Source: a virus. Taken from it: a stretch of 55,067 nucleotides of DNA. The notes under the pieces were generated by a model that was not told the origin of the DNA, made no database searches, and saw nothing but the letters and a program-made list of their open reading frames with translations. The stretch lies in IMG/VR virus record IMGVR_UViG_3300027969_000130, positions 1 to 55,067 of that record; one strand, 5' to 3'. A program made the translations under genes and the position numbers. This document shows, piece after piece, positions 1 to 55,067 of the stretch (position 1 is its first letter; each line of letters starts with the position of its first letter).

Positions 1-82
1 CAATTTGCCGAACCTCGTTATTGAAAGGCCTGGCTTTTTTAGCTACTTCATTCAGCAGCTGAATAAATTCTTGATCGGTCAT
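1..82 (-). CDS. Acyl carrier protein, 5' fragment (redundant copy)
   Basis: This is the first 27 codons of the acyl carrier protein gene whose complete copy lies at 54715-55005. It starts with ATG at 82, overlapping the TAA stop of the upstream 75-codon gene. The single base difference from the right-end copy changes codon 22 from Ser (right end) to Asn (here). The reading frame runs off the contig because the molecule is circular, so this is not a truncated gene. Confidence 0.9.
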   Translation of the reverse strand, partial: MTDQEFIQLLNEVAKKARPFNNEVRQI

Positions 83-144
83 TAGTCCACCATTTGTACA
101 AATCGTTGAGCCCAACTACGCCAGTCAGGAAAGTCAAATGGATT
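1..144. repeat. Left copy of the terminal redundancy
   Basis: These 144 bases recur at the right end (54924-55067) in the same orientation. There is one difference, T at position 18 against C at position 54941. The repeat falls inside an operon that reads continuously across it, so it is best explained as the overlap left when a circular genome was assembled as a linear contig. Confidence 0.95.
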
Positions 145-309
145 AGGAACGTTTTTCTGGCTTAGTCCTGAAATAACGCAGAACTGTAGCGCCCACTCCT
201 GCCATTTGTCTTCATTGTCCAGCCTTGAAAGTGCGCCATAGTTTGAAAGGTCGAGTACGACACAATCCGCCCAGTCGCGCAATCCTATTATAACAGGTTG
301 CGTGATCAC
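82..309 (-). CDS. Small hypothetical protein between tail hub and ACP
   Basis: The protein has 75 residues, is rich in Trp and Asp, and has no membrane segment or signal peptide. It starts with GTG at 309. The GTGA overlaps the TGA stop of the tail-hub gene, and AGAGGG lies upstream. Its own stop overlaps the ACP start (TAATG), so the hub, this protein, the ACP and the ketosynthase are translationally coupled. The C-terminal part (FPDWRSWAQRFVQ) looks like a short conserved phage module. I do not recognise a function. Its position suggests a virion or tail-assembly accessory protein. Confidence 0.75.
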   Translation of the reverse strand: MITQPVIIGLRDWADCVVLDLSNYGALSRLDNEDKWQEWALQFCVISGLSQKNVPNPFDFPDWRSWAQRFVQMVD

Positions 310-1952
310 GTGGAACCCTCTGCTAATCCGCCAAGTACATCTCCATCTGCCTCACCAATATGGGCAATGACCTGGCCCATCTGATAAGTGCCGTTGATTG
401 TGTTTGAAGTAAACTTAAAGCGCAGTTCGCGGCGAGCTTCTTTAAAAGACACAACTTGCTCGTAAGGAGTAGTTGGATTAGCAAAGATGACGCGCTCAGG
501 ACCAGGAACTTCAAGGGACTTGGCATTTGCCCGACCTGTCAACTGAACGGTCATGTTTTCAGACTGCACAAAGTCCGGCTCTATGGATTCAACCCTGATC
601 CATTTATTCTTAGATCCACCTTGAGGAGTCAACATGCTCATGTCAGCTGTCTCGAAGTAGGAAGGAACAGCTGTGATGAACTGGCCGTCAATCTCGTTCA
701 CGTCGTGCTCGTGCTGCCAGACCTTAAATCCCTCTTCAGGAACCACAATGCGCTGATCGTTGTCTTGAGTGACGCGAAGATCTCCGGCTTCTGTGATCCT
801 GTTATTTGGCACAAAAGTAGATGTTTGTAGGCCGCACAGAAGTGGCGCAGCGTACAAAGGAGACCACTCCCCAGCGGTCCGTCCACTATTAGGCAACTCG
901 GTGTCATACCAAGTGTTCTCACGAACGTTGTAGATGATGGCGTGGGTGCATTCGGTGGCTGTTCCGCGTGGATAGCACCACCAGATCTCGCCGTAACGAG
1001 GAACCTTGAAAGCCCAAACTCGTTGGGCAGCTTCCCTGTTTAGACCGTCATAGAAGTAGTTGATGTTCAGGTTGTTGGGGATCTCACGAACCACGCCGTT
1101 GAACATTAGCATGCGGTCTGTTCCCAACCAGAAGTACTGGCCGTCATACTCAATCACTGAGGCGGCAGACAAGATACTGGAATATGGGCTGATCGTGTCA
1201 AACTGGAAGACCTCCTGGCCTCCCACAAAAGATCCACGGATAACAGCATCAGCACTCCAAAAGATGCCTGATGGGGCGTTTCCTGGACCACCTCGAAGAG
1301 CAACTCCACGCACGATCTTTTGACCTGCTACTCGTGCACTTCCTGAACCCAAACCGGTCAAGTCAGTAGGAGCTCCCGCAACAGACCATCCGATGACACC
1401 GTCGTTGCCAAAGTACATCAGATAAGGATGCAAGGCAACCACGCCTCCGGTGACGCTTACGCCAGCAGGAAACGTTGTGACCTCTGTCAAGGCATCAGTC
1501 CCAGTCATGGAACCAATGAACAACTGGCCGCCATCCGTGTTGCAAAGACAATTGGCATTTGGAGCCACTTGGCCAACAATCATATTTGCAGCAGGAATAG
1601 ACTGGCTGTCATAGATGACGTCAAACTGCCAAAGATTATTGTCATCGACAACGTACGTAATTGGAGTCCTGTCTGTAATCAGGCTTGAGTTTCCGCTGGC
1701 GTCAAGAGTGAATCGCTGCACAAAACCGGCACTTCCTGAATGGAAGTAAGTCTGCCCATTTTGCGTAAAAGTCTTGACCCCACGGCTGACTTCAGTCAGG
1801 TATCTGTTGACAACGGTGTAGCCTCCAACCTTACGAGGAAGGCCCCTCTGCCAACGGACCCATTGTCCATCAACATAGTAGTCGCCCTCGTACCTGGTGC
1901 CATCACGCTTGATGCCAGGCAGCGACTTAAGGACGATTGGGGTTGTGGTCAT
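306..1952 (-). CDS. P22 gp10-like tail hub / packaged-DNA stabilisation protein
   Basis: The protein has 548 residues and a beta-rich sequence of repeated blades with Gly, Trp and Tyr, such as YDGQYFWLGTDRMLMFNGV near residue 270 and EIWWCYPRG near residue 325. Proteins of this type (P22 gp10, 472 aa) form the hub that closes the portal channel below the gp4 ring and carries the tail needle and spikes. The start is ATG at 1952 with GGTGGAAC upstream, and the ATG overlaps the end of the preceding fibre-like gene. Assignment to the hub family rests on overall pattern, length and context, not on a catalytic signature. Confidence 0.75.
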   Translation of the reverse strand: MTTTPIVLKSLPGIKRDGTRYEGDYYVDGQWVRWQRGLPRKVGGYTVVNRYLTEVSRGVKTFTQNGQTYFHSGSAGFVQRFTLDASGNSSLITDRTPITYVVDDNNLWQFDVIYDSQSIPAANMIVGQVAPNANCLCNTDGGQLFIGSMTGTDALTEVTTFPAGVSVTGGVVALHPYLMYFGNDGVIGWSVAGAPTDLTGLGSGSARVAGQKIVRGVALRGGPGNAPSGIFWSADAVIRGSFVGGQEVFQFDTISPYSSILSAASVIEYDGQYFWLGTDRMLMFNGVVREIPNNLNINYFYDGLNREAAQRVWAFKVPRYGEIWWCYPRGTATECTHAIIYNVRENTWYDTELPNSGRTAGEWSPLYAAPLLCGLQTSTFVPNNRITEAGDLRVTQDNDQRIVVPEEGFKVWQHEHDVNEIDGQFITAVPSYFETADMSMLTPQGGSKNKWIRVESIEPDFVQSENMTVQLTGRANAKSLEVPGPERVIFANPTTPYEQVVSFKEARRELRFKFTSNTINGTYQMGQVIAHIGEADGDVLGGLAEGST

Positions 1953-18105: not shown

Positions 18106-18525
18106 TTAGATAAAAGCTCTGATCGCTGTCGGATCTCCAGTAACCTTGGCAAGAATGTCTAGGTCATTGAACATCACAAATTCGATCTCATCGTCACCGG
18201 ACCTTACGGTCCAACGATCACCGCCGTATTTAGGTGCACGGACGTAGGCACCAACTTCACACCAGGAACCTTCAGGCCACGGTTCCATAGTGTTTCGATT
18301 CTTGTAAGCCAATGAGCCGATTGCCACTACTTTGGCGATCTGGGTATTGCTGGCTTCTGTCTTTCTTGCTTCTTCCGGGATGTAGATACCGCCAGCCGTT
18401 TGATTCTTGGCTTTGCGGACCTGGACGATCACTCGTGAACCCAAGGGCTCGTGGCAGCAATCGACGGTTGGGAAGGCCTCGTCCAATGAGGCGTAGTTGA
18501 AGGACATGGGGGTTTCAAGTAGCAT
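18106..18525 (-). CDS. GroES-like co-chaperonin
   Basis: The protein has 139 residues. It shows the Cpn10 pattern: an N-terminal LGSRVIVQVRK strand, a mobile-loop region with GGIYIPEEAR, a central AKVVAIGS and a C-terminal FVMFNDLDILAKV. It is longer than E. coli GroES (97 aa) at both ends, as in phage co-chaperonins such as T4 gp31. It probably caps the host GroEL to fold the coat protein, since the gene lies in the head module between portal and scaffold. I chose ATG 18525 for its CGGAGA ribosome site. No GroEL gene is present. Confidence 0.85.
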   Translation of the reverse strand: MLLETPMSFNYASLDEAFPTVDCCHEPLGSRVIVQVRKAKNQTAGGIYIPEEARKTEASNTQIAKVVAIGSLAYKNRNTMEPWPEGSWCEVGAYVRAPKYGGDRWTVRSGDDEIEFVMFNDLDILAKVTGDPTAIRAFI

Positions 18526-23363: not shown

Positions 23364-23393
23364 ATTGTAGACCGAACTGCGGGATCGCGTAAA
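23364..23393 (-). promoter_or_regulatory. Possible late-operon promoter
   Basis: On the leftward strand TTTACG is separated by 18 bases from TACAAT, giving a start site about 20 bases before the ribosome site of the small terminase gene. The match to the -35 consensus is weak, so an activator acting from the adjacent repeat element (23404-23568) is possible. Confidence 0.4.
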
Positions 23394-30684: not shown

Positions 30685-32191
30685 TGCTGAAGTCCGGAGT
30701 CTGATGGCCTTTATCCTGGAAGGAGAAGGCTGGCACAGACCAGACAGTGGCACGTTTCCCGTTCAGCTTATAGGTATGCGTTTCACCGCCGTAGTCACGA
30801 ATAGCAGAACTGATCTGATTGAGCTTGAATTCCTTAAACTTCTGCTTGTCAAGGAAGTTGATGAAGTCTGCCAGCCTAAACAGGTGGCGGTTGTCATCAC
30901 GGTCATGGAATGGTTTGCCAAGAAGGATCTCGTCAAGATGCTTGGCCTGCGCCTTGCCTGTGCAATAACGTTCTAACAGGTCGATGAACTGGCCCTTAGG
31001 ACTAGCATCCTCAGGAGCCTCAATGATCACTACGTCTTGCAGCAGCGCCTGTATCATTTGATTCCATTGCATCAGGTTCATCTTTGGCGGCATGTAATTC
31101 ATTGCCTCCATACATCTCTTTTGGAAGCCCGCCTGATTCTGCAGATCTTCTGTAGACAGTGACAAGCGCATTCCGTTGTCCATGTCAAGGAACCAGATGG
31201 GAGGTTCCGTGTTGTACTTGCTCAGTGATGATAGTCGTGGCGTTCCTGATTGCTGGCCCACGCCAAACTTACGCATGCGGCACATTCCAGCGTTGCAGTT
31301 GGGTCGTAGTGGCGGCCTGCTGCATGTGTACTGGTAGTCACTGTTCTGCATCGATTGAATGACCCCCATTGCTTCTGACTCAGGCAGCGGAGGATCCATG
31401 ATGTCTATATTCATCTGCATGACTAATGGCTGCCAATCATCTGGTTTCATCTTTCTTGCTAAGACGCATAGGTTGAACAGACCATTGTTTCGTGTACCTT
31501 CAGGGAAGCCTGTTTGAGCTAACTTCTCGATGCATGGAGGAGCGTCCTTATATGCTCTCTTCTTGCTCTTAGATTCTGCAAACTTAAGACGTACAAAGTT
31601 GGCTCTTGTAAGTTTAAGACCTTCAGCAAATGCTAGGAAATCATCTATCTGCATCGGGCCGCCGTTCTCAGCAACCCCGTATCTGGATGTTTGGTCGCCT
31701 TCAAAGTAAGGCATGTTGATCCAGTTGCCGACGTCACCGCGTTCAGACAACACTTGATCTTGTTTGGGAAAGATCTCGCAACTTGGATGGCCAATCACGC
31801 TGGCCAACTCACCGAGCTTTCGTTTGACATCAGCCGCCGGTATAGGCTCGCTGAAAAACATGTAAATGTGAGCGCCTCCCGACTTGCTGCGGCAGACCGC
31901 TACCGGAGCCTTGGCTTTGGCGCAAGCTTCAACGGCATCCTTAAGGTCAAAGTTCTTATATTCATCAATGTCAATCGCACCAAAGAGGCATGTGTTGTCC
32001 TCTCTGATTGGCACAATACCGATTCCTTTTGTCCCTGCTAGGTGCGCATCCCATAGCTGCTCCGTTACCGGCGCCCTCTTTGTGATTGCTGTCCCCTGAA
32101 CCTTTAGGCCAGTATTCTTGCCATCGATGTCATAGGTCCCGTAAGCACCTGTGTGCCCGGAAAATAGCGCCATGAATCTTTGTGCAAGCAT
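30668..32191 (-). CDS. Archaeo-eukaryotic-type primase (AEP), TOTE-like
   Basis: The protein has 507 residues. The catalytic AEP core is visible as AIDIDEY (Asp74/Asp76), SGGAHIY (His108) and EIFPKQD (139-145). A helical middle part and a Cys cluster (CSRPPLRPNCNAGMCRMRKF) in the region of residues 285-310 may bind metal or an Fe-S cluster. The C-terminus is helical and winged-helix-like. No bacterial DnaG-type or T7-like primase is present, so this enzyme probably starts DNA synthesis, followed by the coupled UvrD-type helicase. Confidence 0.85.
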   Translation of the reverse strand: MLAQRFMALFSGHTGAYGTYDIDGKNTGLKVQGTAITKRAPVTEQLWDAHLAGTKGIGIVPIREDNTCLFGAIDIDEYKNFDLKDAVEACAKAKAPVAVCRSKSGGAHIYMFFSEPIPAADVKRKLGELASVIGHPSCEIFPKQDQVLSERGDVGNWINMPYFEGDQTSRYGVAENGGPMQIDDFLAFAEGLKLTRANFVRLKFAESKSKKRAYKDAPPCIEKLAQTGFPEGTRNNGLFNLCVLARKMKPDDWQPLVMQMNIDIMDPPLPESEAMGVIQSMQNSDYQYTCSRPPLRPNCNAGMCRMRKFGVGQQSGTPRLSSLSKYNTEPPIWFLDMDNGMRLSLSTEDLQNQAGFQKRCMEAMNYMPPKMNLMQWNQMIQALLQDVVIIEAPEDASPKGQFIDLLERYCTGKAQAKHLDEILLGKPFHDRDDNRHLFRLADFINFLDKQKFKEFKLNQISSAIRDYGGETHTYKLNGKRATVWSVPAFSFQDKGHQTPDFSNGSLI

Positions 32192-44000: not shown

Positions 44001-45070
44001 TTTGCGTCAAGGATCTCACCTGTTTCGGGATGAAAAAAACCTAAGTTTCGTCCGGTTGCAGGATCAACAACAGGCTGAATGTTTAATTCTTCAAGCGCAT
44101 TTTCAAACCTTTTTTCAAGACGGGGTTGCCATTCCGGATCCAAGCCTTGTCCAAGCTTGATTCGCTTAGGGATTGGTGGCTTGTTTGCAGCAATAGTCTT
44201 TTGCAATTCTTCCTGAGTGATCTTAGGAGATGCTTGTAGCTTTTGCTTAATGGCTCTAGATTCAAGTTCTTCTGGCTTAATGCCTGGAGTGGTCTCAAGC
44301 TGCTTAAGGATCTGCTCGCCAGTTCCTTTTTTCTGCTTTAGCGTATTGATCGCCTTGTCAACAGCAGAGAAGAACGTAGCGACCTTGCCAACCTTGCCGC
44401 CTTCTTCGTACTTTTGAATCAGGCCGCCCAAGGCTTTTTTGTCTGGCTCGCTAAAAGCTTCAACAGCCGTGCCTATTGATCCGCCAAAAGCCGTTCCAAT
44501 ACCGTAGTTGATGGCTCTTGGATCGACTGTAGGAGACAGATATTCGATAGGAGCAGCAGCAACCTTGCCGGCCATTCCCATCTTCTTTGCTCCGCCAAGG
44601 ATCTTGTTCATCAAGGCGCCAGGAACCGGCAACTGACCGAGCATCTCGCCGCCAGCATAAGAAAAGTGCTCAAGAGCCCCTTTAGGCTCATTGATACCCA
44701 TGTCCTTACGGACGGCTTCCTTGATCTTGCCTGCCTTTTTATCAGCTGCAACCGCAAAGTCTGGAGCGTACTTTTCATCTACAATACCAGCAACTGCTGG
44801 AATAGCCACGGTGTTGTAGTAGATGCCAGGAGTTCCCTTGCCCACGCCAACTTCGCCTTTGTCGTCAAGGCCAGACCACTGGCTTCTAAAACCAGCAGTC
44901 GCTTGCTTGGCTGCCCTGACTACGGAGTCAAGAGTTTCCTTGCGGCTTTCAAAAGCTCTTTTGGTGTCTGGGTTAGAAGGAGTTTCCTTGAGCTTTGAGA
45001 TGGAGTCTCTAATCTCCTGAGCCTTGTTCCCTTTTTCGTACTTCTTTTCGAGTTTGTCGAGGTCACTCAT
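41048..45070 (-). CDS. Large ejection-type virion protein with polyvalent-protein and ART-like domains
   Basis: The protein has 1340 residues. The N-terminal 250 residues are helical with a Gly/Ala-rich stretch (~155-215). The middle contains conserved segments HWDDPDVLAHYRVSD and LYVDEIQSDWHQKARD, then KNWHELATKDILDLAAKEGY and TIGGEGMKSFYD, found in very large phage polyvalent proteins. The C-terminal ~125 residues (VLHGGPSRI, TTDQGYAI) resemble ADP-ribosyltransferase-like DUF3990 folds. It is the last gene of the late operon, which fits an internal protein injected with DNA. Start ATG 45070, SD GGAG. Confidence 0.65.
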   Translation of the reverse strand: MSDLDKLEKKYEKGNKAQEIRDSISKLKETPSNPDTKRAFESRKETLDSVVRAAKQATAGFRSQWSGLDDKGEVGVGKGTPGIYYNTVAIPAVAGIVDEKYAPDFAVAADKKAGKIKEAVRKDMGINEPKGALEHFSYAGGEMLGQLPVPGALMNKILGGAKKMGMAGKVAAAPIEYLSPTVDPRAINYGIGTAFGGSIGTAVEAFSEPDKKALGGLIQKYEEGGKVGKVATFFSAVDKAINTLKQKKGTGEQILKQLETTPGIKPEELESRAIKQKLQASPKITQEELQKTIAANKPPIPKRIKLGQGLDPEWQPRLEKRFENALEELNIQPVVDPATGRNLGFFHPETGEILDAKQVRNMDPEELGIPVDPATGKLDSESAYLLQNVRRAVVEAEEQFDLALGATNTKFSQYSKSKGQNNYREILLQHEDRSAPGAAAISQRIDELLKSNPATEEEAAAVNKELNSLIDKVTTERQMFTASHWDDPDVLAHYRVSDMTGPNGEKVLYVDEIQSDWHQKARDARKREVKRILESERTDIRQKALAEVGSTDVTNENENKIRSVFNRLNKERKAEIEKQVDENFGYRSAEDDEKLYQLNSKMERLRNTGMNQEELKEYFTPGKIVPGYGGMDKVLSFNSGEGSPAYKKAYDYAIQRAKSAGIEGEAAERWATKKATDETKYDWSVTVIEVDPKTGQPRKGADTRTHTTSPEKYIVDELRKEASGIESKVPDAPFKKNWHELATKDILDLAAKEGYDKVAFSPGVEQVKRYESGLRQAVDSINYNPAEDGSLMIQGKKGDRTVFDGKLVGDTFVSGPGEGKTLTEVFGAGIAKQIEDKAPELHDLLKSPVKRTDAMPDDKDVSDLLWEYGDRMTTDQKKWLRDYQERWELDVDGTPAGESIASEMVDEYTNWLKSNKLRNLSPEEVRLKELEAIPEGERTPEQWQEFHVVRDKAGNPESGTYPPLASFAKITGPDLTIGGEGMKSFYDQRLPSYVKNYAGKEFKAPTGYMEFENPCTKSKVSERQIQRMMDDIANGDDDELMEMAMERTHALTDQALREQGLHPNSPEWEDAWWNVMDEFQDRGVEAAARELAIKRLEQPKAEKIKAFSVDITPQMKEKINKEGQKLYGFVAPPLLPPMAGGAAALETGKRMMEKEPVVEEEQPKEPPTAPQGFQSGGRVGNMKDAAEGLLRVLHGGPSRIRLDREKNLDVTTDQGYAIKRAQDKMTQMGQEGPPMINKFDVPAAKLLRFEETYSPEDVKLMRRFFNKLPEGKAMTGEEIYDTAQGKDFVMEGVAKAGGFSGYERPAGGSGGVGNWFRVTDQEALTRKARGGLAELQKRYR

Positions 45071-48000
45071 TTTCTAGGCTCCGGACGATGCGTTGGACTT
45101 TGGCTTCATCGTCCTCTTCCTCATCAGCCGGAACGTCGGATTCAGGAGCCGCTTTGCGTGTTGTAGGAGCCGCTGCTCCGATGGTACCTGAGGTCGTCTT
45201 GAGGCGTCTGGCAGAGTTGTTCTTGTCTTCAATGAACTTGGCGCTGCTTGCTTCAAGGCGTTTCAAGGTATCATCAACCTCTTGGGTTGTTCCTGACTTC
45301 AGCATCTTGGCCACTTCGCCGGCTGTCTTCTCGTCAAGAGAGGTACGAGCCTGCAAGTATTTCAAGACGCGCCCAACCACCGAGCCAGGTGATCCTGCTG
45401 CTACGTCCACTGCTTCACCAGCAATGTCGAAGATGCCGTTGCCGGCTTTCAGGTCTTTCAAGGCTTCTGTCTTATTTGCTGTGCGGCTGCCGCGGACAAT
45501 GTCTTGGGCATTACGGAACAATTCAGACTCACGTTGGAGAGCTGCCTCAAACACAGTGTATTCGTTAGGATCCTTGAACAAAGCTTCTAGACGTTTACGT
45601 GTTGCAGGGGCTCCTATGATCCTCTGGGCCGCATTGATTTGCTGCGGAGAGTCCATAACCTTAGTCAGGAGTGACTGTGCAACGCCAGCACGCAAAGCAT
45701 CACGCTCGGCTTCTGACATACCGTCAACCAGTTTCTTGGCTTCGTTTGGCAGCATCTTAGGTGACAAGTAATCTGTACGGCCCATACGGAGAGCGTCTAA
45801 GACTTCCATGTCGCCAGCATACTTAGCCCTGGCTGCTGCATACTCAGGCACGTTTTCATCGATGACGCCAATGTAGGCCTTGCGAAGATCTTTGAGTGCA
45901 TTGGCTTCCGCCTTGCCCATACCTTCGCCTTTGTAGCCCTTGTCAATCAGAGCATCAATGCCCCGCTTGATGTAGTCAAGGGTTCTGACGTCAGGAATCT
46001 TGCCGACGCTGATCAGGTTGCCGTCTTTGTCTTGGCTGTAGATGTCATTCAGCTTGAACTTGCTAGCATCTTCGCCTCGAAGTTCTGCGGCTCTTGCTTC
46101 TTTGCTGGAGATAGCTTGAGCTTCCTTGAATGCCTTCTTGAAGGTATCATCCTCCAAAACCTTCAGGATGCGGGTATCATCAACCGATCCATGCGCGTAG
46201 GCGGTATCGTAGAGATTGTTGGCATTGGAACGCAAGGTTCCCATCAACTTGTCTTCTTGTGCCGTGTAATCAACACCCTTGCCGATGTCTTTCAGGGCAC
46301 GAGAGGCCGCTGCTTCCCGACCGCCTTCTAAGCGATCATTCAGGCCTTGACCAAGGATCTTGCGACCAGGTCCTGGGCGAGTCACTACTGCTTCGCCAAG
46401 GGTTGACAGAGATGGGGTTGCATCCATGATTGTGGATTGAACACCAAGCTTCTTGTCGGCTGCCATCCTTGCCTTAAGGGTTGTAGGGTCCATTTCGTCC
46501 CTGCCCATAGCTTCCAATACCTTATTGGTTGCGCGTTGCTCTACGGCCCCAGGAGATGGTCGGATTGCATTCTTAACAGCCTTGGCTGCCTGACCAGTGA
46601 GCTGGATGCCTTTGGCTACAGTTGGGCCAAGGACGGCTCCTGTTGCACCGCCTTCCAAGGCTCCCATACCGCGTTCGCCTTCGGTTGCAGAACCTGCTCC
46701 TGCAATAGAGCCCGTTGCCGCAGCGGAACCTGCCGCCTTGCCCATAGTGCCTGTCATAAACTTGGGCATGTATTGGGCCAGCTTGCTTGCAGCCATTCCC
46801 ATGCGGCCGGCTCCCATCACAGATCCGGCTGTTCCGGCTCCTGGGATCATTGCCATACCAATGGTTGGAATTGCGCCTGAGACTAGCTCAGTGCCCAAGG
46901 CAGCAAAGGGATGCTTCTCTTGGAACTGCTGATAGGCTTCACGTTCTTCACGGACAACGTCTTCATAAGGGCGACCTTCCATCTTGGCTCGAACACGGGC
47001 AACAGCCTCGTCGCCAAAGCCAAGACCTAAGCCCTGACCGACAGCGCGGCCAAAGTTGGCCATTGAATAATCGCCGCCATCGGCCATGTGGACCATTCCA
47101 CCGCCTGCTTTCTTGACAAGCTCATGGTCAAAAAACTTATGCTCTGCCGCAGACTTAGAGCCATATTGGCCGTAAGTTGTAAGCGCGTCAGGACCACCTA
47201 AGTATTTGCGCATCATCTCTATCATTTCAGGAGAGTATGTCTGCTTGGTTGGAGTGACCGGAGTCGTTGTTGTCTTAGTTACTGGAGTTGTCGTCTTAGT
47301 GACTGGTGTTGTTGTGGTTGGCTTGGTCGTCACAGTTGTTGGCTGAGACTGAGTACCGCCAGCGGCAGTATATCGCGTGCTGACATCTTGCCAAGGCAGG
47401 CCAGTTGTCTTAGACATCTGAAGCGTGCCAACACCAAACGTACCCATGGCTGCAGCTATGTCTTTGTCAGAGGCTCCAGGATGCTCTTGCAACCAAGCAT
47501 ATACGTCATGATTGGAATACTTAGGAGCCGCAGCGTCATAACGCTTTTGAACGTCTTCTAACTTAAGACCTGTTGCCCTAGCCATTTGAGTAGGATCAAC
47601 TCCGTACTCGTTCATCGCGTAAGCAATATCTTGGTCTGCCATTCCAGAACGCTCGCCCAACCAATCCTGGACCTGCTTGTCTGAGATCGGCTGAATTGCT
47701 GCATCATAACGACCTTGAACATTTCCAAGATCAAGGCCTGTTGCCCTAGCCATTTGAGAAGTGTCAACGCCGTACGTCTGCATGGCCTTAGCAATCTCTT
47801 GATCGGTCAAGCCAGGATTAGAGTTTAAATAGTCAAGAACCTGCTGGTCGGTGTATCCGCCATCAGCATAATGAGCAACCATGCCGCCGTCGGCGTAACG
47901 GCCAACAAAGCCACCGTCTGCATTAGCTTCGGGAGTGATCTTGCCGTAAGCACCCTTGCGGATGTTCTCCATCTTGGTTTGGCTAGTCTTTAAGCGACGA

Positions 48001-49214
48001 GCCGCTGCCTTGATGGCGCGATCGTAAATAGCCTGACGTTCGGTGTCACTCATGCTGAGCGAGCCCTGAATGTCTATCAGGATCTTACGTTCGCCTTCAG
48101 TTGGGTTACCACCAAAGATGGCTTTCAACTGGTCAAGTCCGTTTGACAAGACCAAGGTCTCAAGGTCAGTAGTTGCAGTCACGCCTTGCGAGTCGCCGAC
48201 TCCTGGAATGTTGCGGGCAATCGTGCGGCGGGCTCCTGCACCAAAACCAGAATAAGCTTGAGGGCTGATCTGTTTGGCCTTGGTCAAGTTTAAGATTGCC
48301 GTCTTGCTAGCGTTGACAACGTCTTCAGCTTCAAACAGCTCACTTTGTTCTTTTGCACTTAGGTTCAAGCCCTTGCCCTCACCAGCCAAAGCTTTCACTC
48401 GAGCGGTAAATTCAGGGGTCCCTGGAGTCAGGCCTTCATCCTTGGCAAGCTTACCGGCCGGAGATGACGGCTTATCAGCATCTCGCTCGGCTTTGGCTTC
48501 AGAAGGAATATAGTTGAGCTTGTTCAAGCGCTGCTTGTAAACAGACTTGTTGGCAGGTGACACATTAGGATCGTTGATCTTCTCAAGCAACTGATCGATC
48601 TCATTGGTCTTAACAGCCGATGGACGAGTGGTCAAGTAAGTGATGCGCGATTGCGCATTCTTCTTGGCATTTTCATTGGCTTTTGGATCGTCAATGATCT
48701 CCTGCATCTTCTCGATCTCAGTCAAGCGATCGCGAGGAGTTGAACGAGCCAGAGCAGAAAGGGCTCCAATCTGAGCTTTTTGACCTTCGCCTTTTACATC
48801 AGCTGCTGCCAACTGATACTTGAGGTTCAGGTCTTCTAGTTCTTGGCTGGCTTTACGGCGCTGCGAAAGAGCCTCGCCAGTCGTCTCGGCAAGATTACCA
48901 AGTGTTTCACCAAAGCCCCCAGTCCGAGTAGGCTTACCGAGAGCAGCCGCAATACGGAACGCCATCTCTGCCTGGTCCGGACCAGCGGACCTAGCCATGA
49001 TCCGTTCACGCGCCTTATCCAGCAGGGCCTGTTTATCAGTCGCCGATTTTTCAGTGTTTTCAAGATATTTTGTCAGTAAGGTTTGAAGTTGTCCAGTATA
49101 AGGATTGGAAGCGCCTCTTGACGAGGAGTAGCCAAATGTTTGCGCCCCGCTGGTTGCATCTTGTGAACCCGCTTCCAGGGAACCGGTTTCTTCGTCGTCT
49201 TCAAGCAATGGCAT
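45063..49214 (-). CDS. Large ejection-type virion protein with three 56-residue repeats
   Basis: The protein has 1383 residues. The N-terminal 300 residues are coiled-coil rich. YADGG motifs precede three tandem 56-residue repeats (about 452-617) ending YGVDTSQMARATG and similar, then a Thr-rich linker and YGQYGSKSAAEHKFF. A Gly/Ala-rich, membrane-seeking part follows (about 755-860), and the C-terminal third is helical and charged. No lytic transglycosylase motif is evident. It lies in the ejection-protein block before the 1340-residue protein, overlapping it by 8 bases. Confidence 0.65.
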   Translation of the reverse strand: MPLLEDDEETGSLEAGSQDATSGAQTFGYSSSRGASNPYTGQLQTLLTKYLENTEKSATDKQALLDKARERIMARSAGPDQAEMAFRIAAALGKPTRTGGFGETLGNLAETTGEALSQRRKASQELEDLNLKYQLAAADVKGEGQKAQIGALSALARSTPRDRLTEIEKMQEIIDDPKANENAKKNAQSRITYLTTRPSAVKTNEIDQLLEKINDPNVSPANKSVYKQRLNKLNYIPSEAKAERDADKPSSPAGKLAKDEGLTPGTPEFTARVKALAGEGKGLNLSAKEQSELFEAEDVVNASKTAILNLTKAKQISPQAYSGFGAGARRTIARNIPGVGDSQGVTATTDLETLVLSNGLDQLKAIFGGNPTEGERKILIDIQGSLSMSDTERQAIYDRAIKAAARRLKTSQTKMENIRKGAYGKITPEANADGGFVGRYADGGMVAHYADGGYTDQQVLDYLNSNPGLTDQEIAKAMQTYGVDTSQMARATGLDLGNVQGRYDAAIQPISDKQVQDWLGERSGMADQDIAYAMNEYGVDPTQMARATGLKLEDVQKRYDAAAPKYSNHDVYAWLQEHPGASDKDIAAAMGTFGVGTLQMSKTTGLPWQDVSTRYTAAGGTQSQPTTVTTKPTTTTPVTKTTTPVTKTTTTPVTPTKQTYSPEMIEMMRKYLGGPDALTTYGQYGSKSAAEHKFFDHELVKKAGGGMVHMADGGDYSMANFGRAVGQGLGLGFGDEAVARVRAKMEGRPYEDVVREEREAYQQFQEKHPFAALGTELVSGAIPTIGMAMIPGAGTAGSVMGAGRMGMAASKLAQYMPKFMTGTMGKAAGSAAATGSIAGAGSATEGERGMGALEGGATGAVLGPTVAKGIQLTGQAAKAVKNAIRPSPGAVEQRATNKVLEAMGRDEMDPTTLKARMAADKKLGVQSTIMDATPSLSTLGEAVVTRPGPGRKILGQGLNDRLEGGREAAASRALKDIGKGVDYTAQEDKLMGTLRSNANNLYDTAYAHGSVDDTRILKVLEDDTFKKAFKEAQAISSKEARAAELRGEDASKFKLNDIYSQDKDGNLISVGKIPDVRTLDYIKRGIDALIDKGYKGEGMGKAEANALKDLRKAYIGVIDENVPEYAAARAKYAGDMEVLDALRMGRTDYLSPKMLPNEAKKLVDGMSEAERDALRAGVAQSLLTKVMDSPQQINAAQRIIGAPATRKRLEALFKDPNEYTVFEAALQRESELFRNAQDIVRGSRTANKTEALKDLKAGNGIFDIAGEAVDVAAGSPGSVVGRVLKYLQARTSLDEKTAGEVAKMLKSGTTQEVDDTLKRLEASSAKFIEDKNNSARRLKTTSGTIGAAAPTTRKAAPESDVPADEEEDDEAKVQRIVRSLENE
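47358..47862 (-). repeat. Three 168-bp coding repeats
   Basis: The repeats encode 56-residue units with D-x-x-V-x-x-(Y/W)-L at the start, IA-x-AM-x-x-(Y/F)GV in the middle and ATGL-x-x-x-x-V-x-x-RY-x-AA (third copy TTGL) at the end. The units diverge to roughly 50 percent identity, so they are old and selected at the protein level. Confidence 0.8.
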
Positions 49215-49223
49215 TTTTTATCC

Positions 49224-51071
49224 TTATTTTCCAAACATCTTGCTGAGGCCGTATCCAGAAGCCAATGCAGAGCCGAATTGCGACAATGGAGATGGCTGGT
49301 AGACGCTTGCAGGTCCGTTTGAAGTAGAGGTTGTAGAAGTAGGCACAGTCAGGCCACGAACAGATGCATTCAAGAAGGCAATGTTGTTGCGGTCGTACTC
49401 GCGTTGGTTGAGGAAGTCTTGATAAGCCTGATCCATCGAGCGCTGCGCTTGCTGCTGCTGAGTTGCTCCAGCTGCATCCAAAGCGCTGATATTCTGCATG
49501 CCCATCTGCTGGGTTTGTTGGCCAAGGGCACCCATTGCCTGGCCAGATTGCAACATGCGAGCAAAGTCCTGATTGGACAATGTTCCCATTTGCTGAGCAG
49601 CCTGAAGATTTTGGGTACCAGCTGCTCCTGCCAAGTTTCCTTGCATTTGACCAAGGGCACCCATTTGAGCACCTGCTTGACCGTATCTTGCAAGGTCTGC
49701 ACCTTCTAAGCCTGCAGCTGATTGGCCCATGGCCGCTTGCTGTTGAGCACCAGCCAACATGCGCTGATAGTCTGCAGCAGTTAAACCGGCCGCTGATTGA
49801 CCCATGGCTGCAGACTGCTGACCAGCCGCCAACATACGTTGCTGGTCTGCTGAAGAAAGCCCAGCCAGACTCTGACCAATTTGAGCTTGTTGACCAGAAG
49901 CAGAAAGTAAACGTTGTTGGTCTGCTGCAGACATACCCGCCAGACTCTGACCGATTTGAGCTTGTTGACCAGAAGCAGACAACATACGTTGGTAATCTGC
50001 CGCGGACATACCGGCTGCTTGTTGACCAAAACCAGCTTGCTGTTGAGCCGCTTGCAACTGACGAGCTTTGTCGGCCTGAAGTTGTTGACCGGCTTGTGAG
50101 TAGCCTGCTTGCAAGGCTTGAGACTGTTGAGCCAGAGTGGATTCTTGAGTATCACGCAAAGCGCGTCCAATAGCCTCACCGCTGCGACTACCACCAAACG
50201 TACCAGATTGAATGGCACGGTCGTTGATACTCGGCAGCAAGTTTTCTTTCAGGTTGCGGCCTGCTAATTCACCAATACGGTTGACCACTTGGTCTTGGTA
50301 TGGGTTCATGTAGTCCTGGATTCCACCCAAACCTGTTTGAGCACCTTGGCTAGACAGTTGAGAAGCTTGCTGCATATATGGACTTGCCATGCCTGCAGTG
50401 TCTGCTCCGCCTGCAATTGCGGTTCCCATGGCCGCTTGGTTTAGATAAGGCATTGCCAAGCCTGCTGTATTAGCAGATCCGGCAGCTGCTGTTCCCAAAG
50501 AGGCTTGATTCAGGTATGGCTGTGCAAGACTAGCAGTTCCACCAGCACCTTGCTGCGTATACCTATTTGCCTGATCAAAATATGGCTGTGCAAGTCCAGC
50601 AGTTCCCTGCATGGCTTGTCCGGTCAGCTGGTTGGCCTGGTTGAAGTACGGTTGTGCCAAGGCGCTTGTGTCGCCGTAGCTTTGACCAATCAGATTGCTT
50701 GCTTGTCCAATAGAACCAGAGGCAGCATTGTACGGGTTGTATTTAAGGGCCTCTGAGATGTACGGAGATGCCGCATTGACAGAGCTGCCAGCACCGGCGT
50801 TGTATATCGCATTTTGCGACATTTCCATCTGGGGTTGATAGGTACTTGCTAGATTTGCCGTGTTAGTGTATGCTTGATTTTGAAGCGGGTCAAAACCAGC
50901 AATCCTAGCCTGACTATACGGCTGATAAGGCTCTGCTGCAATCGAGTTAGCTCGACTGATCAAGCCCTGCGTATAGTCAGAATACCAGGCAGGAACGTTA
51001 GAGGTTGTCTCACCATACGTCGTGACCGACGCAGGTGGAGACCCCTGGAACAGAAAGTCCAGAACTCCCAT
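49224..51071 (-). CDS. Repeat-rich virion protein of the ejection block
   Basis: The protein has 615 residues. It has an N-terminal conserved part (MGVLDFLFQGSPPASVTTYG), then ~24-residue repeats with LAQPYFNQAN cores (~130-235), a connecting segment (QDQVVNRIGELAGRNLKENL) and ~23-residue repeats with AAGMSAADYQRML cores (~340-460). It is Gln/Ala rich, helical and poor in charge, so it may form long bundles or a trans-envelope tube. It lies beside the other ejection-type proteins. SD GAGGAG, ATG 51071. Confidence 0.65.
   Translation of the reverse strand: MGVLDFLFQGSPPASVTTYGETTSNVPAWYSDYTQGLISRANSIAAEPYQPYSQARIAGFDPLQNQAYTNTANLASTYQPQMEMSQNAIYNAGAGSSVNAASPYISEALKYNPYNAASGSIGQASNLIGQSYGDTSALAQPYFNQANQLTGQAMQGTAGLAQPYFDQANRYTQQGAGGTASLAQPYLNQASLGTAAAGSANTAGLAMPYLNQAAMGTAIAGGADTAGMASPYMQQASQLSSQGAQTGLGGIQDYMNPYQDQVVNRIGELAGRNLKENLLPSINDRAIQSGTFGGSRSGEAIGRALRDTQESTLAQQSQALQAGYSQAGQQLQADKARQLQAAQQQAGFGQQAAGMSAADYQRMLSASGQQAQIGQSLAGMSAADQQRLLSASGQQAQIGQSLAGLSSADQQRMLAAGQQSAAMGQSAAGLTAADYQRMLAGAQQQAAMGQSAAGLEGADLARYGQAGAQMGALGQMQGNLAGAAGTQNLQAAQQMGTLSNQDFARMLQSGQAMGALGQQTQQMGMQNISALDAAGATQQQQAQRSMDQAYQDFLNQREYDRNNIAFLNASVRGLTVPTSTTSTSNGPASVYQPSPLSQFGSALASGYGLSKMFGK
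49690..50040 (-). repeat. 69-bp coding repeats
   Basis: At least five tandem units of about 69 bp encode the AAGMSAADYQRML repeats. Two neighbouring units near 49870-50010 are nearly identical at the DNA level (TTTGAGCTTGTTGACCAGAA in both), so recent duplication or conversion is likely. Confidence 0.75.
50370..50690 (-). repeat. 72-bp coding repeats
   Basis: Several units of roughly 72 bp encode (L/M)A(Q/M)PY(F/L)(N/D)QA repeats in the same gene. They are more diverged than the 69-bp set. Confidence 0.65.
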
Positions 51072-51072
51072 A

Positions 51073-53139
51073 TTAAGCTCCTCTCAAATAGGACAGTGGG
51101 CTCTTGGCATTTGGGCTAATCTTGCCACCCGCAAGAGCTTTCCCTTTGTGTTGACGTAATTTTGATCTCATCTGGTCAAGCTTAGCTGCTCCTGCCTTTG
51201 AGGATCCATTGCCAAGCATTGCTACTGACTCTGCATCCATCACGTATTCGCCATCAGACAAGACAGCATTTACGTCATCAGAACGACCGTCCGCGCCACC
51301 ACCAATTCTCATGCTGTGCACTTGGCTAAGTCCGCCCATTGCTTTTGCTTGCATAGGAGGATTGCCATATTGATAGTAAGCCATCTTAGGATCACGAGGA
51401 CGTTGGGGCATCTGAGGACGTCCTTGCTGAGGCATTCCTTGAGGACCACCTTGAGGAGGCATTCCCTGTGGCATTCCTTGAGGACCACCTTGCATCATTG
51501 GAGGACGACCTTGAGCCATGCCTTGAGGACCACCTTGACCGGCAGCATGCTGCTGTGCCATGGCTTGCATCATTTGAGCACGACGAGGATCCTGCATTCC
51601 TTGAGCTTGACCACCCTGAGCAAAATGCTTCATTTGAATCAAGCCACCCATCTTGGCAGGTGTGGCAGGAGTCTGACCAGGGATTGGAACAGGCACAAAC
51701 TTAGTGTTCTGGAAGAATTGATGTTCTCCAGAATTTTGTTGACCTGCTTGACCATACTTAGAGATGTCTCCAGCATAGTTAGTCTTGTCGCGCATGTAGT
51801 TGTACAAGTCAAGGGACTTGGTGAAGTTCTTGTCTTGCGTGGAGCCTGGTTTTGGAGGAGTCTGATTAGGAGGACCGCCTCCGCCCCCAAGCAAGGTTGT
51901 TGCGCCAAGAGCTGCTGCTCCAAGAGTCCAAGGACTGGCTTCTTTAACCCAGTCAACCGCGCTTGTACCAACTTGCTTTGCCGCGTCAGTAAGGTTTCCG
52001 CTAGTGATGTTATCCCATACGCTAGGAATAGGAGGAGTTGTTGCTGGGTAATTTATTGGTTGCGGTGTTGGAGTGATACCACTTTGGCTCACTGTTACAT
52101 CTGGCGTTGGGCTGCCGTATGTGTTTCCATTTGCACCTTGGAAAGTGGTAGGAACACCATTCTCCATGTACTGAGGCAAACCAGGCATATCAACTGTTAA
52201 GCCTTGGCCACCACCCATACTAGCTAAGTTAGGAGCACTTGGAGGTTGCAGACCAGGGCCACCAGATGTACCTGGAGGAGTAAGGCTGAAGTCAGTCTGA
52301 CCCGTCAAATAGTTAGTGGTAGGAGCATCAATTCTAAATTCAGGAACCTTGAGACCAGGAGCACCATTACCACTTGACAAGCTGTAGTCAGGATTAAATG
52401 AGGTATCTAGGCCTGACTTAAACGTTGGCAATTCAGGTGCAGCTGGAGCATTAACCGTCTGCAAAGGACTAGGAGCTGGCGGCGGAATGTCAACAGTTGA
52501 CTGAGTTTGAAGCGGGGATGGAGGCGCAACTTCAGTAGTAACTGGAGGTAGTTCGTTTGCAGTAATTTGCGGACTTGGATTGGGTGGTCCAACTTCAGGC
52601 TGAATTGCCGGCAGATCAGTTGCAGTAATTTGCGGATTTGGAATTGGCGCGCCAACCTCAACACCAGGAGGGGGAATGTCAACACCAGGTGTTCCAATAT
52701 CCACATTTGAGAAGTTGTTATTCTGCGCAAGGAAGTCTCCAAGAACGTCTGTCTCAGGAGCAGGAATATCGCCTCCACCTGGGCCAAAGAATTCTGCACC
52801 AATGCCGGCTCCTGCGCCTGCCATCAAACCTCCCTTGATAGCCTCATCAAAGCTTTCACCTTGAACTAGGCCAGCTGCCGTGTTTGCCGCACCTGCAGCA
52901 ATACCAACACCAACAGCTGCAGACGTGCCAAAATAAGCTGCAGCCGCCGGTCCTAGGAACGTGGCAGCCGCTACCGTTGCAATTGCAGAAAGGGGATCAT
53001 CAAGAATAGGCTGGATGACATAATCATCAATTGCCTTACCAACGTCTTTGACAACGTCAATGACGCTTTCAACGACGCTACCAACGGCTTCAACTACGCC
53101 GCCAACAACGTCTTCAACAAAACTGGCTACTGCACCCAT
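51073..53139 (-). CDS. Membrane-active virion protein, Pro-rich, with SDGEYVMDAE motif
   Basis: The protein has 688 residues. The first 120 residues are strongly hydrophobic/amphipathic (VEDVVGGVVEAVGSVVES; AAATFLGPAAAAYFGTSAAV), suited to insertion in a membrane. A Pro-rich repeat region follows (~155-240), then a Gly-rich part with YGQAGQQNSGEHQFF and AQGGQ, and Met/Gln/Gly/Pro repeats. The C-terminal module LSDGEYVMDAESVAMLGNG and KLDQMRSKLRQHK is familiar from aquatic phage virion proteins. It begins by TAATG overlap with the GNAT-like gene. Probable ejection-channel component. Confidence 0.7.
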   Translation of the reverse strand: MGAVASFVEDVVGGVVEAVGSVVESVIDVVKDVGKAIDDYVIQPILDDPLSAIATVAAATFLGPAAAAYFGTSAAVGVGIAAGAANTAAGLVQGESFDEAIKGGLMAGAGAGIGAEFFGPGGGDIPAPETDVLGDFLAQNNNFSNVDIGTPGVDIPPPGVEVGAPIPNPQITATDLPAIQPEVGPPNPSPQITANELPPVTTEVAPPSPLQTQSTVDIPPPAPSPLQTVNAPAAPELPTFKSGLDTSFNPDYSLSSGNGAPGLKVPEFRIDAPTTNYLTGQTDFSLTPPGTSGGPGLQPPSAPNLASMGGGQGLTVDMPGLPQYMENGVPTTFQGANGNTYGSPTPDVTVSQSGITPTPQPINYPATTPPIPSVWDNITSGNLTDAAKQVGTSAVDWVKEASPWTLGAAALGATTLLGGGGGPPNQTPPKPGSTQDKNFTKSLDLYNYMRDKTNYAGDISKYGQAGQQNSGEHQFFQNTKFVPVPIPGQTPATPAKMGGLIQMKHFAQGGQAQGMQDPRRAQMMQAMAQQHAAGQGGPQGMAQGRPPMMQGGPQGMPQGMPPQGGPQGMPQQGRPQMPQRPRDPKMAYYQYGNPPMQAKAMGGLSQVHSMRIGGGADGRSDDVNAVLSDGEYVMDAESVAMLGNGSSKAGAAKLDQMRSKLRQHKGKALAGGKISPNAKSPLSYLRGA

Positions 53140-53594
53140 TATTGTGCTCCTTCACGTTTGTTTCCCAATTGCAAAGCAACTTGGTACTGCCCGTCTTTTA
53201 GCATTGTGACGTTATAGCCCATGCCGGGGTTAGGTGGTTGTTTAGCAACATTGCGGAAAATATTTATGAGGCTTTGGTCGCTGAACTGGGTGACCAGTGT
53301 GTCGAATCCTGCTTTATAAGCATCAACAACAAAAGCAAAACCAGAAGCTACAAAATTTGGGGCTGTATCTGCGTTTAATGCCCTGAACATGCCTTTGCGA
53401 GGTTCTGTTTTTGAACCATGCACAATGTAGACAGTATTGCCGTAGCGATAAAACTTGCTGTCAGGCATCTGCACCTCCTTTACAAAGGAAGCATACACGA
53501 ATTCCATCGGGTATTCAGATTTTGTATTCTCAGCGGCTACTTTAAGCACCTCGCCAAGATCTAGCATTTGTTGTCGGCTGTCTACGAGCGGCAT
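53139..53594 (-). CDS. GNAT-like small protein downstream of the ketosynthase
   Basis: The protein has 151 residues. The alpha/beta pattern (EYPMEFVYASFVKEVQMPD, YGNTVYIVHGSK, RALNADTAPNFVASGFAFVV, AYKAGFDTLVTQF) resembles GNAT-fold proteins found in phage virion modules (T7 gp13-like), but a clear acyl-CoA binding R/Q-x-x-G-x-G/A loop is not visible. It could be an acyltransferase using the phage ACP, or a structural relic. It lies three bases after the ketosynthase gene. SD GAGGATC, ATG 53594. Confidence 0.5.
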   Translation of the reverse strand: MPLVDSRQQMLDLGEVLKVAAENTKSEYPMEFVYASFVKEVQMPDSKFYRYGNTVYIVHGSKTEPRKGMFRALNADTAPNFVASGFAFVVDAYKAGFDTLVTQFSDQSLINIFRNVAKQPPNPGMGYNVTMLKDGQYQVALQLGNKREGAQ

Positions 53595-53596
53595 AA

Positions 53597-54718
53597 TTAG
53601 ATCCTCATGTTGAAAAGCGCAGCACTGAACACGTTGCCCATGCCAGCACTCAAGCTTAACACTGCCCCTTCAGGTGCTTCAATCGCCTCTGAGAGGAATA
53701 CATGATCCTCCTCACTACGATTCAAGATCCCAGGGACAGTTCCCTTTTCTAAATCATTGAACAGCAAGAGGGTCTCTAACAATCCGCTCGCTCCCATCGT
53801 ATGGCCGATTCGTTGCTTGTACGATGTTGCTACAAAATCACTCAAGAACCCTTCCAGCGCAGCTTTTTCAGCTTCGTTGTTAGATCTGGTACCGGTACCA
53901 TGAGTTTTTACGATTTTAATTTGTTCTGAGGAAATTTGACAAAGTTTGAGCGCGCCCTCGATAGCTCGTCTAAAACCTTGTCCATCTTCTCTTTGTCCAA
54001 TGGCGTTTTTTGCAACTTCAGTTGCTGTCCAGGCTGACAAAAGCTCTGCTCTTGCCCGCAATTTTGACCGCTTTAAAGCGTCTTCTGACTCAAATACGGC
54101 AAACGCGGCACCTTGACCTATATAGAACCCAAAGTTCTTGGAATCGAAGGCACTGGGGACCACCTGGTGAGTCTCGGCCATGCTTTCTGTCAGGGTTGCT
54201 TTAGCTTCTCCAAAGAATTGGAGGGTCATGTTGTTGACCTGGTCCTCAATAGCTAGTACAACTACCCGATCAAAGCCATAAAACTTGATCAGGGTCTGTA
54301 CGTCCATTAAGGCCTTGAGGCTAGATGTACAAGCGGTGGCATCCGTTGCTGTGTGATCAATCTCTCCGCACTGCGCAGCAACCCGACCAGCATAGATCTG
54401 GGTCAGGGACAATGGAAGGACCTTGTAGTTGTAGGTCCATTCATTTTCTCGATTGAGTTTGGCGCCTTCGTTGGCAAAATTGCTGTTGCCGGCGGCCAGA
54501 ATGAAGGCCGTTCGGCCTGGTTGTGTGTCTCGGAGGAGCTTTAAAAGCTCGGGGTCCAAGACCTTTTCAGCTACCTGATGGGCTGGATTGATCAAGCCTG
54601 TTTTGACCCTGTTGTAGGTCTCAGGAAACAGGTGAACCCTTTGGGGAAAGGTGTGATTCTCAAAAAGAGTCGTGTCCTCAGTGCACGCAGTGCGGCTTTC
54701 GGTGAGGAAGATTCTCAT
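53597..54718 (-). CDS. Beta-ketoacyl-ACP synthase-like enzyme (thiolase fold)
   Basis: The protein has 373 residues from ATG 54718, which overlaps the ACP stop (ATGA) behind AAGGGAG; a GTG nine bases earlier is less suitable. The whole condensing-enzyme triad is present: Cys130 in TACTSSLKAL, His273 in KTHGTGTRSNNEAE and His306 in RIGHTMGASG. The enzyme should take an acyl chain on Cys and condense it with a malonyl-ACP. It is slightly shorter than FabF (413 aa). Being inside the virion operon and coupled to an ACP is highly unusual. Confidence 0.9.
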   Translation of the reverse strand: MRIFLTESRTACTEDTTLFENHTFPQRVHLFPETYNRVKTGLINPAHQVAEKVLDPELLKLLRDTQPGRTAFILAAGNSNFANEGAKLNRENEWTYNYKVLPLSLTQIYAGRVAAQCGEIDHTATDATACTSSLKALMDVQTLIKFYGFDRVVVLAIEDQVNNMTLQFFGEAKATLTESMAETHQVVPSAFDSKNFGFYIGQGAAFAVFESEDALKRSKLRARAELLSAWTATEVAKNAIGQREDGQGFRRAIEGALKLCQISSEQIKIVKTHGTGTRSNNEAEKAALEGFLSDFVATSYKQRIGHTMGASGLLETLLLFNDLEKGTVPGILNRSEEDHVFLSEAIEAPEGAVLSLSAGMGNVFSAALFNMRI

Positions 54719-55005
54719 ACGAACCACTCCCTTGCTTGGTCTAGGTCAGCCGGTTGTCGGCGTCCCCATTCCTTCAGGAAGTTGAAAAGATCTTGCGGGG
54801 TCTCGCCCAGCATCTCTTTGCTTTTTTCGTCTTCTACGTCATAGATCTCGCAAAGGTAGACTGTGCACATCAGCATGTCAAGGCTGTCTAAGCCAGTTTC
54901 CTTAAGGATCATGTCCATCGAGTCAATTTGCCGAACCTCGCTATTGAAAGGCCTGGCTTTTTTAGCTACTTCATTCAGCAGCTGAATAAATTCTTGATCG
55001 GTCAT
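54715..55005 (-). CDS. Acyl carrier protein
   Basis: The protein has 96 residues, predicted as four helices. Ser41 in GLDSLDM is the phosphopantetheine attachment site of carrier proteins; an acidic helix II (MLMCTVYLCEIYDVEDE) follows, which normally docks partner enzymes. A short basic/aromatic C-terminal extension (KEWGRRQPADLDQAREWFV) is longer than in E. coli AcpP (78 aa). ATG 55005 overlaps the stop of the upstream gene (TAATG), and its own stop overlaps the ketosynthase start. Activation needs a host phosphopantetheinyl transferase, since none is encoded. Confidence 0.9.
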   Translation of the reverse strand: MTDQEFIQLLNEVAKKARPFNSEVRQIDSMDMILKETGLDSLDMLMCTVYLCEIYDVEDEKSKEMLGETPQDLFNFLKEWGRRQPADLDQAREWFV

Positions 55006-55067
55006 TAGTCCACCATTTGTACAAATCGTTGAGCCCAACTACGCCAGTCAGGAAAGTCAAATGGATT
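54924..55067. repeat. Right copy of the terminal redundancy
   Basis: Direct repeat of 1-144 (one mismatch). See the left copy. The true circular length is therefore about 54,923 bp. Confidence 0.95.
55005..55067 (-). CDS. 3' end of the 75-codon protein (redundant copy)
   Basis: The last 20 codons and stop of the small protein whose complete copy lies at 82-309. Sequence identical over this stretch. Confidence 0.9.
   Translation of the reverse strand, partial: NPFDFPDWRSWAQRFVQMVD

Follow-up and report, generated by a model that had tools for sequence, protein, structure and literature searches.

I describe here a cassette of three adjacent genes in a window of 55,067 bases, the whole of IMG/VR virus record IMGVR_UViG_3300027969_000130. 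The genes encode an acyl carrier protein (ACP), a ketosynthase (KS) and gpC, a small protein with a predicted GNAT fold, and they lie in a virion operon immediately before its first ejection-type gene. By sequence comparison the cassette is common to a large group of uncultured phages, and its presence goes together with a particular N-terminus on the first ejection-type protein. It is most likely a virion-maturation rather than a metabolic cassette, acting on that protein. I propose, more specifically, that ACP, KS and gpC form a phage acylation cassette that serves the first ejection protein specifically, in which gpC would move an acyl group from ACP and KS would tailor the chain; this proposal is tentative and close to evenly balanced.

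Composition and conservation of the cassette

An initial annotation made from the sequence alone had placed an ACP, a ketosynthase and a GNAT-like protein between a tail hub and ejection genes, and the gene order bears this out. Transcription on the minus strand runs through a tail-hub-like protein, a 75-aa protein, ACP, KS, gpC, a 688-aa protein, a DNA-ejection-like protein and two very large proteins (Table 1). The first and last 144 bp of the record (1-144 and 54924-55067) repeat each other with one mismatch. The genome is therefore probably closed or terminally redundant, and the operon continues from position 1 of the window into its far end. Starts and stops are coupled from hub to KS, as the annotation had it (hub/75 aa GTGA, 75 aa/ACP TAATG, ACP/KS ATGA), and again between gpC and the next gene (TAATG). 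The gpC gene does follow KS closely, although the gap is two bases (TAA TT ATG) rather than the three first reported. The annotation's assignment of the genes to a virion operon also stands: nearby genes have matches to virion structural and tail families, to an SU10-type adaptor, to a portal family and, weakly (E 0.0012), to DNA-ejection families.

The KS matches both Pfam ketosynthase domains (PF02801, 1.4e-16; PF00109, 6.8e-8), and its profile finds FabF in PDB at 1.5e-28. The full Cys-His-His triad that had been claimed for it is invariant together with a lysine: Cys130, His273, Lys301 and His306 are unchanged in 18 diverged rows and then in 150/150 rows. The protein scores 114.7 bits on the FabF equivalog, below the cut-off of 493.75, and on sequence it is classed as a KS, not as a FabF ortholog; at the FabF gate position it has a Met, placed there by alignment with the FabF GFGG motif. 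A phylogeny, one of the checks first suggested, separates all phage KSs from ten cellular KS and polyketide synthase rows by a branch with 100/100 support, in a tree with small cellular sampling and a row from a Sulfurospirillum bin on a very long branch. Among the sampled rows, then, the phage KS forms a long phage-only branch and does not appear to be a recent host copy. Matches to KS under the names of Listeria, Enterococcus and Staphylococcus 'phages' (22-29% identity, unannotated records) seem to be plain FabF of host origin and were not used.

As a single sequence the ACP gave no significant match, and Pfam PP-binding did not match the window protein; the family profile matches solved ACPs in PDB at 3e-4. 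Its predicted phosphopantetheine serine, Ser41 in GLDSLDM, is intact as first noted, and the site reads DS[LM]D in 171/171 homologues. Among the genes scanned I found neither a reductase nor any other partner enzyme, and a search for a phage phosphopantetheinyl transferase of the ACPS family found none.

Relatives were collected by scanning viral contigs with the single KS (50 loci) and with a KS alignment (the best 80 of 584 matching stretches). Nearly all of the 182 loci compared have the order hub-75aa-ACP-KS-gpC-ejection, so the recurrence that the initial annotation had suggested looking for is there; many of these loci are repeats from the same contigs, and they do not count as independent. 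Near-clade median ratios of nonsynonymous to synonymous substitution (dN/dS) are 0.077 for KS, 0.083 for ACP and 0.084 for gpC, values that indicate purifying selection on all three genes. Because the arrangement recurs in many relatives, under purifying selection and with invariant catalytic residues, it is more than chance.

MW202545, a Manatee Spring metagenome phage, was the only public phage record found to carry the trio, which there has the same order and a KS annotated as 3-oxoacyl-ACP synthase. That KS is annotated (L053:22437-23381) with a start at 23381, although the open frame runs about 156 bases further, to 23537, and the longer form restores the conserved N-terminus; the record is titled Siphoviridae, yet its virion genes match a podovirus-like set. 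PHROG families 35856 and 28189 are the KS and ACP families. The MW202545 and PHROG entries carry single-gene or unknown-function annotation and describe neither the cassette nor the link to the ejection protein. In the literature searched I came across no account of an ACP-KS-gpC cassette, and no paper for a Bcep22-type precedent.

A scan of a genome collection, with follow-up, showed that SU10-like contigs carry another KS lineage, in which ACP and KS come with a third protein of about 115 aa. In 16 loci this trio stands directly before an SU10-type portal gene, as far as the contigs reach. The model of the third protein (predicted local distance difference test score, pLDDT, 73; 12 sequences) shares the core element order of gpC, and its PDB matches listed are mostly GNATs, weak ones (best E 0.013). 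Furthermore, a phage contig from the Sulfurospirillum bin encodes a KS that has diverged but keeps its motifs intact; about 8 kb from it, ACP-like, GNAT-like and MGGTAKIIGG... genes stand in a row, the ACP and GNAT being recognized by eye only; a viral-contig scan with this KS gave no match.

The predicted fold of gpC

By sequence, gpC has no significant match in Pfam, PHROGs, NCBIfam or PDB, so its fold was taken from structure prediction. An AlphaFold2 model built from 47 relatives, with rows from viral contigs only, reaches a pLDDT of 92.6 and shows the GNAT element order. In a Foldseek search of PDB, GNAT-fold enzymes are the best among the matches listed (best E 1.1e-5, probability near 1), with moderate TM-scores of about 0.5-0.6; the top match listed is the lysine acetyltransferase Rv0998, and the acyl-homoserine lactone synthase TofI is also listed. 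One structural match is named internal virion protein A. The model thus supports a GNAT fold, and the earlier 'GNAT-like' label, which finds no support in the sequence, survives through the prediction. The acetyl-CoA pyrophosphate loop (Q/RxxGxG/A) after strand 4 is absent, and LNADTAxNF stands in its place. No Pfam, NCBIfam or PDB match places gpC in the HlyC/TAAT group, and no Pfam or PHROG match likens its sequence to T7 gp13.

The N-terminus of the first ejection-type protein

In 158 loci the ejection-type gene starts -4 to +4 nt from the gpC stop. Its product begins with a short motif that fits 61/62 non-redundant proteins encoded with the cassette and 0/29 encoded without it, counted with a pattern slightly looser than M-[SGAT]-A-V-[VA] whose form is post hoc, written after the sequences had been seen; Fisher's p for this link, 6e-23, ignores shared ancestry. 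The maximal hydrophobic moment of the first 41 residues is 0.54 with the cassette versus 0.30 without. The C-terminus of the 688-aa protein aligns with RW_066c of Caulobacter phage RW at 54% over 97 aa, and cassette-less ejection proteins carry the same C-terminal motif in the examples compared. On a hub tree with long branches and quick support values, the cassette-less state occurs in at least two places (the RW-type clade and locus L292), and the N-terminal motif is absent in both. The motif is kept among ejection proteins whose bodies are less than 70% identical, which argues that it is itself selected.

No conserved lysine acceptor was found in the first 250 residues of the ejection protein, the best column holding 27/62 (44%). 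Thus the N-terminal amine is the more natural candidate acceptor, and the HlyC-type lysine acceptor first suggested becomes less likely for this region.

Natural variants of the cassette

Seven near-clade loci without KS keep ACP and gpC. A KS remnant of about 30-50 codons persists in 5/7 KS-less records searched, and no relocated KS was found in these phages, only in-place remnants or nothing, in records that may be fragments. In the KS-less loci the dN/dS of ACP is 0.04-0.16, still indicative of purifying selection, and gpC retains 23/24 conserved residues in those checked. Locus L159, elsewhere on the hub tree, likewise has ACP and gpC but no KS, so KS was lost more than once. Since both ACP and gpC stay selected after this loss, they have a use without KS; and since KS is losable, it is accessory. 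In loci L289 and L290, which lack both ACP and KS, gpC retains only 13 and 15 of its 24 conserved residues, where the minimum among alignment rows is 19.

Caulobacter phage RW resembles the window in its capsid (82% identical), terminase (57%) and hub (52%). RW and most relatives found by its hub protein have no ACP, KS or gpC, and in them the hub is followed by the 75-aa gene and then directly by the ejection gene; the 75-aa tryptophan-rich protein follows the hub gene whether the cassette is present or absent. In six cultured or reference relatives (L215-L220), ACP, KS and gpC were not found by profile with filters off. The host of the nearest cultured relatives, all without the cassette, is Caulobacter CB15.

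Table 1. Cassette genes and landmarks of the surrounding operon, in window coordinates
Feature	Position	Strand	Evidence or remarks
ACP, 96 aa, predicted phosphopantetheine site Ser41	54715..55005	-	Family profile matches PDB ACPs; DS[LM]D; dN/dS
FabF-type KS, 373 aa, Cys130/His273/Lys301/His306	53597..54718	-	Opens at ATG 54718, closes at 53597; Pfam; PDB FabF profile; invariant residues; dN/dS
gpC, 151 aa, predicted GNAT fold, candidate acyltransferase	53139..53594	-	AlphaFold2; Foldseek; dN/dS 0.084
First ejection-type protein, 688 aa, amphipathic, candidate acyl acceptor	51073..53139	-	N-terminus MGAVASFVEDVVGGVVEAVG; position, N-terminal motif, C-terminal homology
Codons 1-20 of the 688-aa protein, M[SGAT]-A-V-[VA] start of amphipathic segment	53080..53139	-	Motif tracks the cassette
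DNA-ejection-like protein downstream of the 688-aa gene	49224..51071	-	phrog_4287, weak, E 0.0012
75-aa tryptophan-rich protein upstream of the cassette	82..309	-	Homologue RW_067c, 39%; flanking landmark
Tail-hub-like virion structural protein (phrog_3287)	306..1952	-	52% to Caulobacter phage RW gp068c; flanking landmark

Other features of the window

A 1383-aa protein (45063-49214) contains about three similar stretches (YTDQQVLDYLNSNPGLTDQEIAKAMQTYGV...) and has weak winged-helix matches (PF13412, 0.0028). The head operon encodes a GroES-like co-chaperonin (18106-18525); an annotated GroES near the capsid gene also occurs in Caulobacter phage RW, Roseobacter CRP-902, Pelagibacter HTVC023P, Alcaligenes QDWS535 and Planktothrix Pag-Yong1. 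A primase-like protein (30668-32191) matches the archaeo-eukaryotic primase domain of TOTE conflict systems (PF22548, 1.1e-20).

What the cassette might do

If the cassette acylates the first ejection protein, a host phosphopantetheinyl transferase would make the phage ACP holo, the phage having no detected ACPS-family enzyme of its own. The phage KS, to judge from its intact residues, would elongate or tailor the ACP-bound acyl chain while host enzymes carried out the other steps. gpC, placed like T7 gp13, would transfer the acyl group from ACP to the ejection protein, a role suggested by its fold, by the pattern of co-loss and by the N-terminal link. The acceptor is perhaps the N-terminus of that protein, most plausibly the amine of the Ser, Gly, Ala or Thr that follows Met removal, or a nearby site, and the lipidated amphipathic tip may then insert into the membrane as the protein is ejected. 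The initial annotation had imagined an acyl chain on a virion or membrane component that helps ejection proteins through the membrane; the motif count and the decay of gpC where ACP and KS are missing lend this indirect support. The annotation's observation is confirmed, and its interpretation as a whole is partly supported.

Several points weigh against such acylation. The evidence for its steps comes from sequences and models. Because the cassette directly adjoins the 5' end of the ejection gene, the two may co-occur through linkage, swapped as one segment. The motif is weaker in L159 (MTKAVKS), which has ACP and gpC. The usual acetyl-CoA loop is absent from gpC, which could be a fold without enzymatic function, and the amphipathic tip could act without lipid. 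The SU10-like trio precedes a portal gene, not an ejection gene, and its target would have to differ or be reached in trans.

Some of these points would suit a cassette that is linked to the ejection gene and yet separate from it in function, making a different acylated product, either an N-acylated small molecule or a hub, capsid or host protein that carries the acyl group, while the ejection 5' end travels as a neighbour. Phage modules do swap as blocks, the genes here are contiguous, the SU10-like trio has a different neighbour, and N-acyl amino acid synthases form small molecules from acyl-ACP; but mere neighbourhood accounts poorly for a motif that persists in otherwise diverged proteins and is missing from both parts of the hub tree that lack the cassette, and I consider this explanation rather improbable. 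The missing loop of gpC fits with ACP, KS and gpC serving as non-catalytic assembly factors, structural or chaperone, for the ejection protein, as do the dispensability of KS and the link of the similarly placed T7 gp13 to morphogenesis (PMC6775973). The invariant KS Cys, His, Lys and His and the ACP Ser across diverged phages are, however, hard to explain without chemistry, and such a role is unlikely.

Least probable, in my estimation, is that KS and ACP are auxiliary metabolic genes that redirect or increase the host's fatty acid synthesis in late infection, an idea the initial annotation had also raised. A published account treats the fabG-acpP-fabF sets of Rhodobacteraceae prophages as metabolic genes (PMC8224337), and fabF is among listed viral metabolic genes (PMC10653327). 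Yet the cassette sits in a virion operon and tracks a virion protein's N-terminus, its KS belongs, among the sampled rows, to a phage-only clade rather than being a recent host copy, ACP and gpC stay selected once KS is gone, and neither a reductase nor a phosphopantetheinyl transferase partner was seen among the genes scanned.

Comparison with known systems

The RTX toxin-activating acyltransferases HlyC and CyaC load proteins with chains taken from acyl-ACP; CdiC, a homologue of theirs, puts 3-hydroxydecanoate on a Lys of CdiA (PMC8510554). In these systems, including CdiC of class IV contact-dependent inhibition, the acyltransferase gene adjoins that of a membrane-acting protein and the donor is acyl-ACP, as proposed for the cassette (PMC8510554). 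They modify internal lysines, whereas the candidate acceptor region of the phage protein has no conserved lysine, and gpC shows no detectable sequence similarity to them. The phage also brings its own ACP and KS; acyltransferases of the HlyC/CyaC/CdiC type usually draw on the host ACP. Acyl-ACP is also the donor with which N-acyl amino acid synthases (FeeM type) modify amino acids (PMC8762209), and TofI, an acyl-homoserine lactone synthase of the LuxI/TofI type, is one of the listed structural matches to gpC. The acceptors of both groups are small molecules, they lie outside virion operons and no sequence similarity to gpC was found.

By position the nearest counterparts are T7 gp13 and the GNAT-annotated genes of cobaviruses, CRP-902 and QDWS535, which adjoin internal virion or ejection genes as gpC does. 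The cobavirus GNAT beside internal virion proteins has been compared with gp13, for which a morphogenesis role was suggested (PMC6775973). In Roseobacter phage CRP-902 (L216:20522-20956) and Alcaligenes phage QDWS535 (L219:12778-13206) such genes stand directly before ejection-type genes, and no ACP or KS was found beside them by profile. gpC differs from gp13 and the podovirus GNATs in having no detectable sequence similarity to them and in missing the acetyl-CoA loop. With FabF-type KSs and bacterial ACPs the phage proteins share the fold, the Cys-His-His plus Lys and the DSLD site; the phage KS is set apart from FabF by its long phage-only branch, its score far below the FabF cut-off and the aligned gate Met.

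Implications

Little is understood of the way in which ejection proteins get across bacterial membranes and seal them; the cassette offers a concrete chemistry here, the acylation of a virion protein. The GNATs beside ejection genes, T7 gp13 and its analogues, likewise have no assigned chemistry. That tailed phages N-terminally lipidate an ejection protein with a phage-tailored chain, using their own ACP, condensing enzyme and gp13-like GNAT, and by extension that GNATs beside ejection genes in many podoviruses may be transferases acting on ejection proteins, is a conjecture that I think more doubtful than the proposal for this cassette. If the cassette does acylate a virion protein, it would to my knowledge be the first phage-encoded protein-acylation system of such a kind, and some phage fatty-acid genes now filed as metabolic would become virion-maturation genes.
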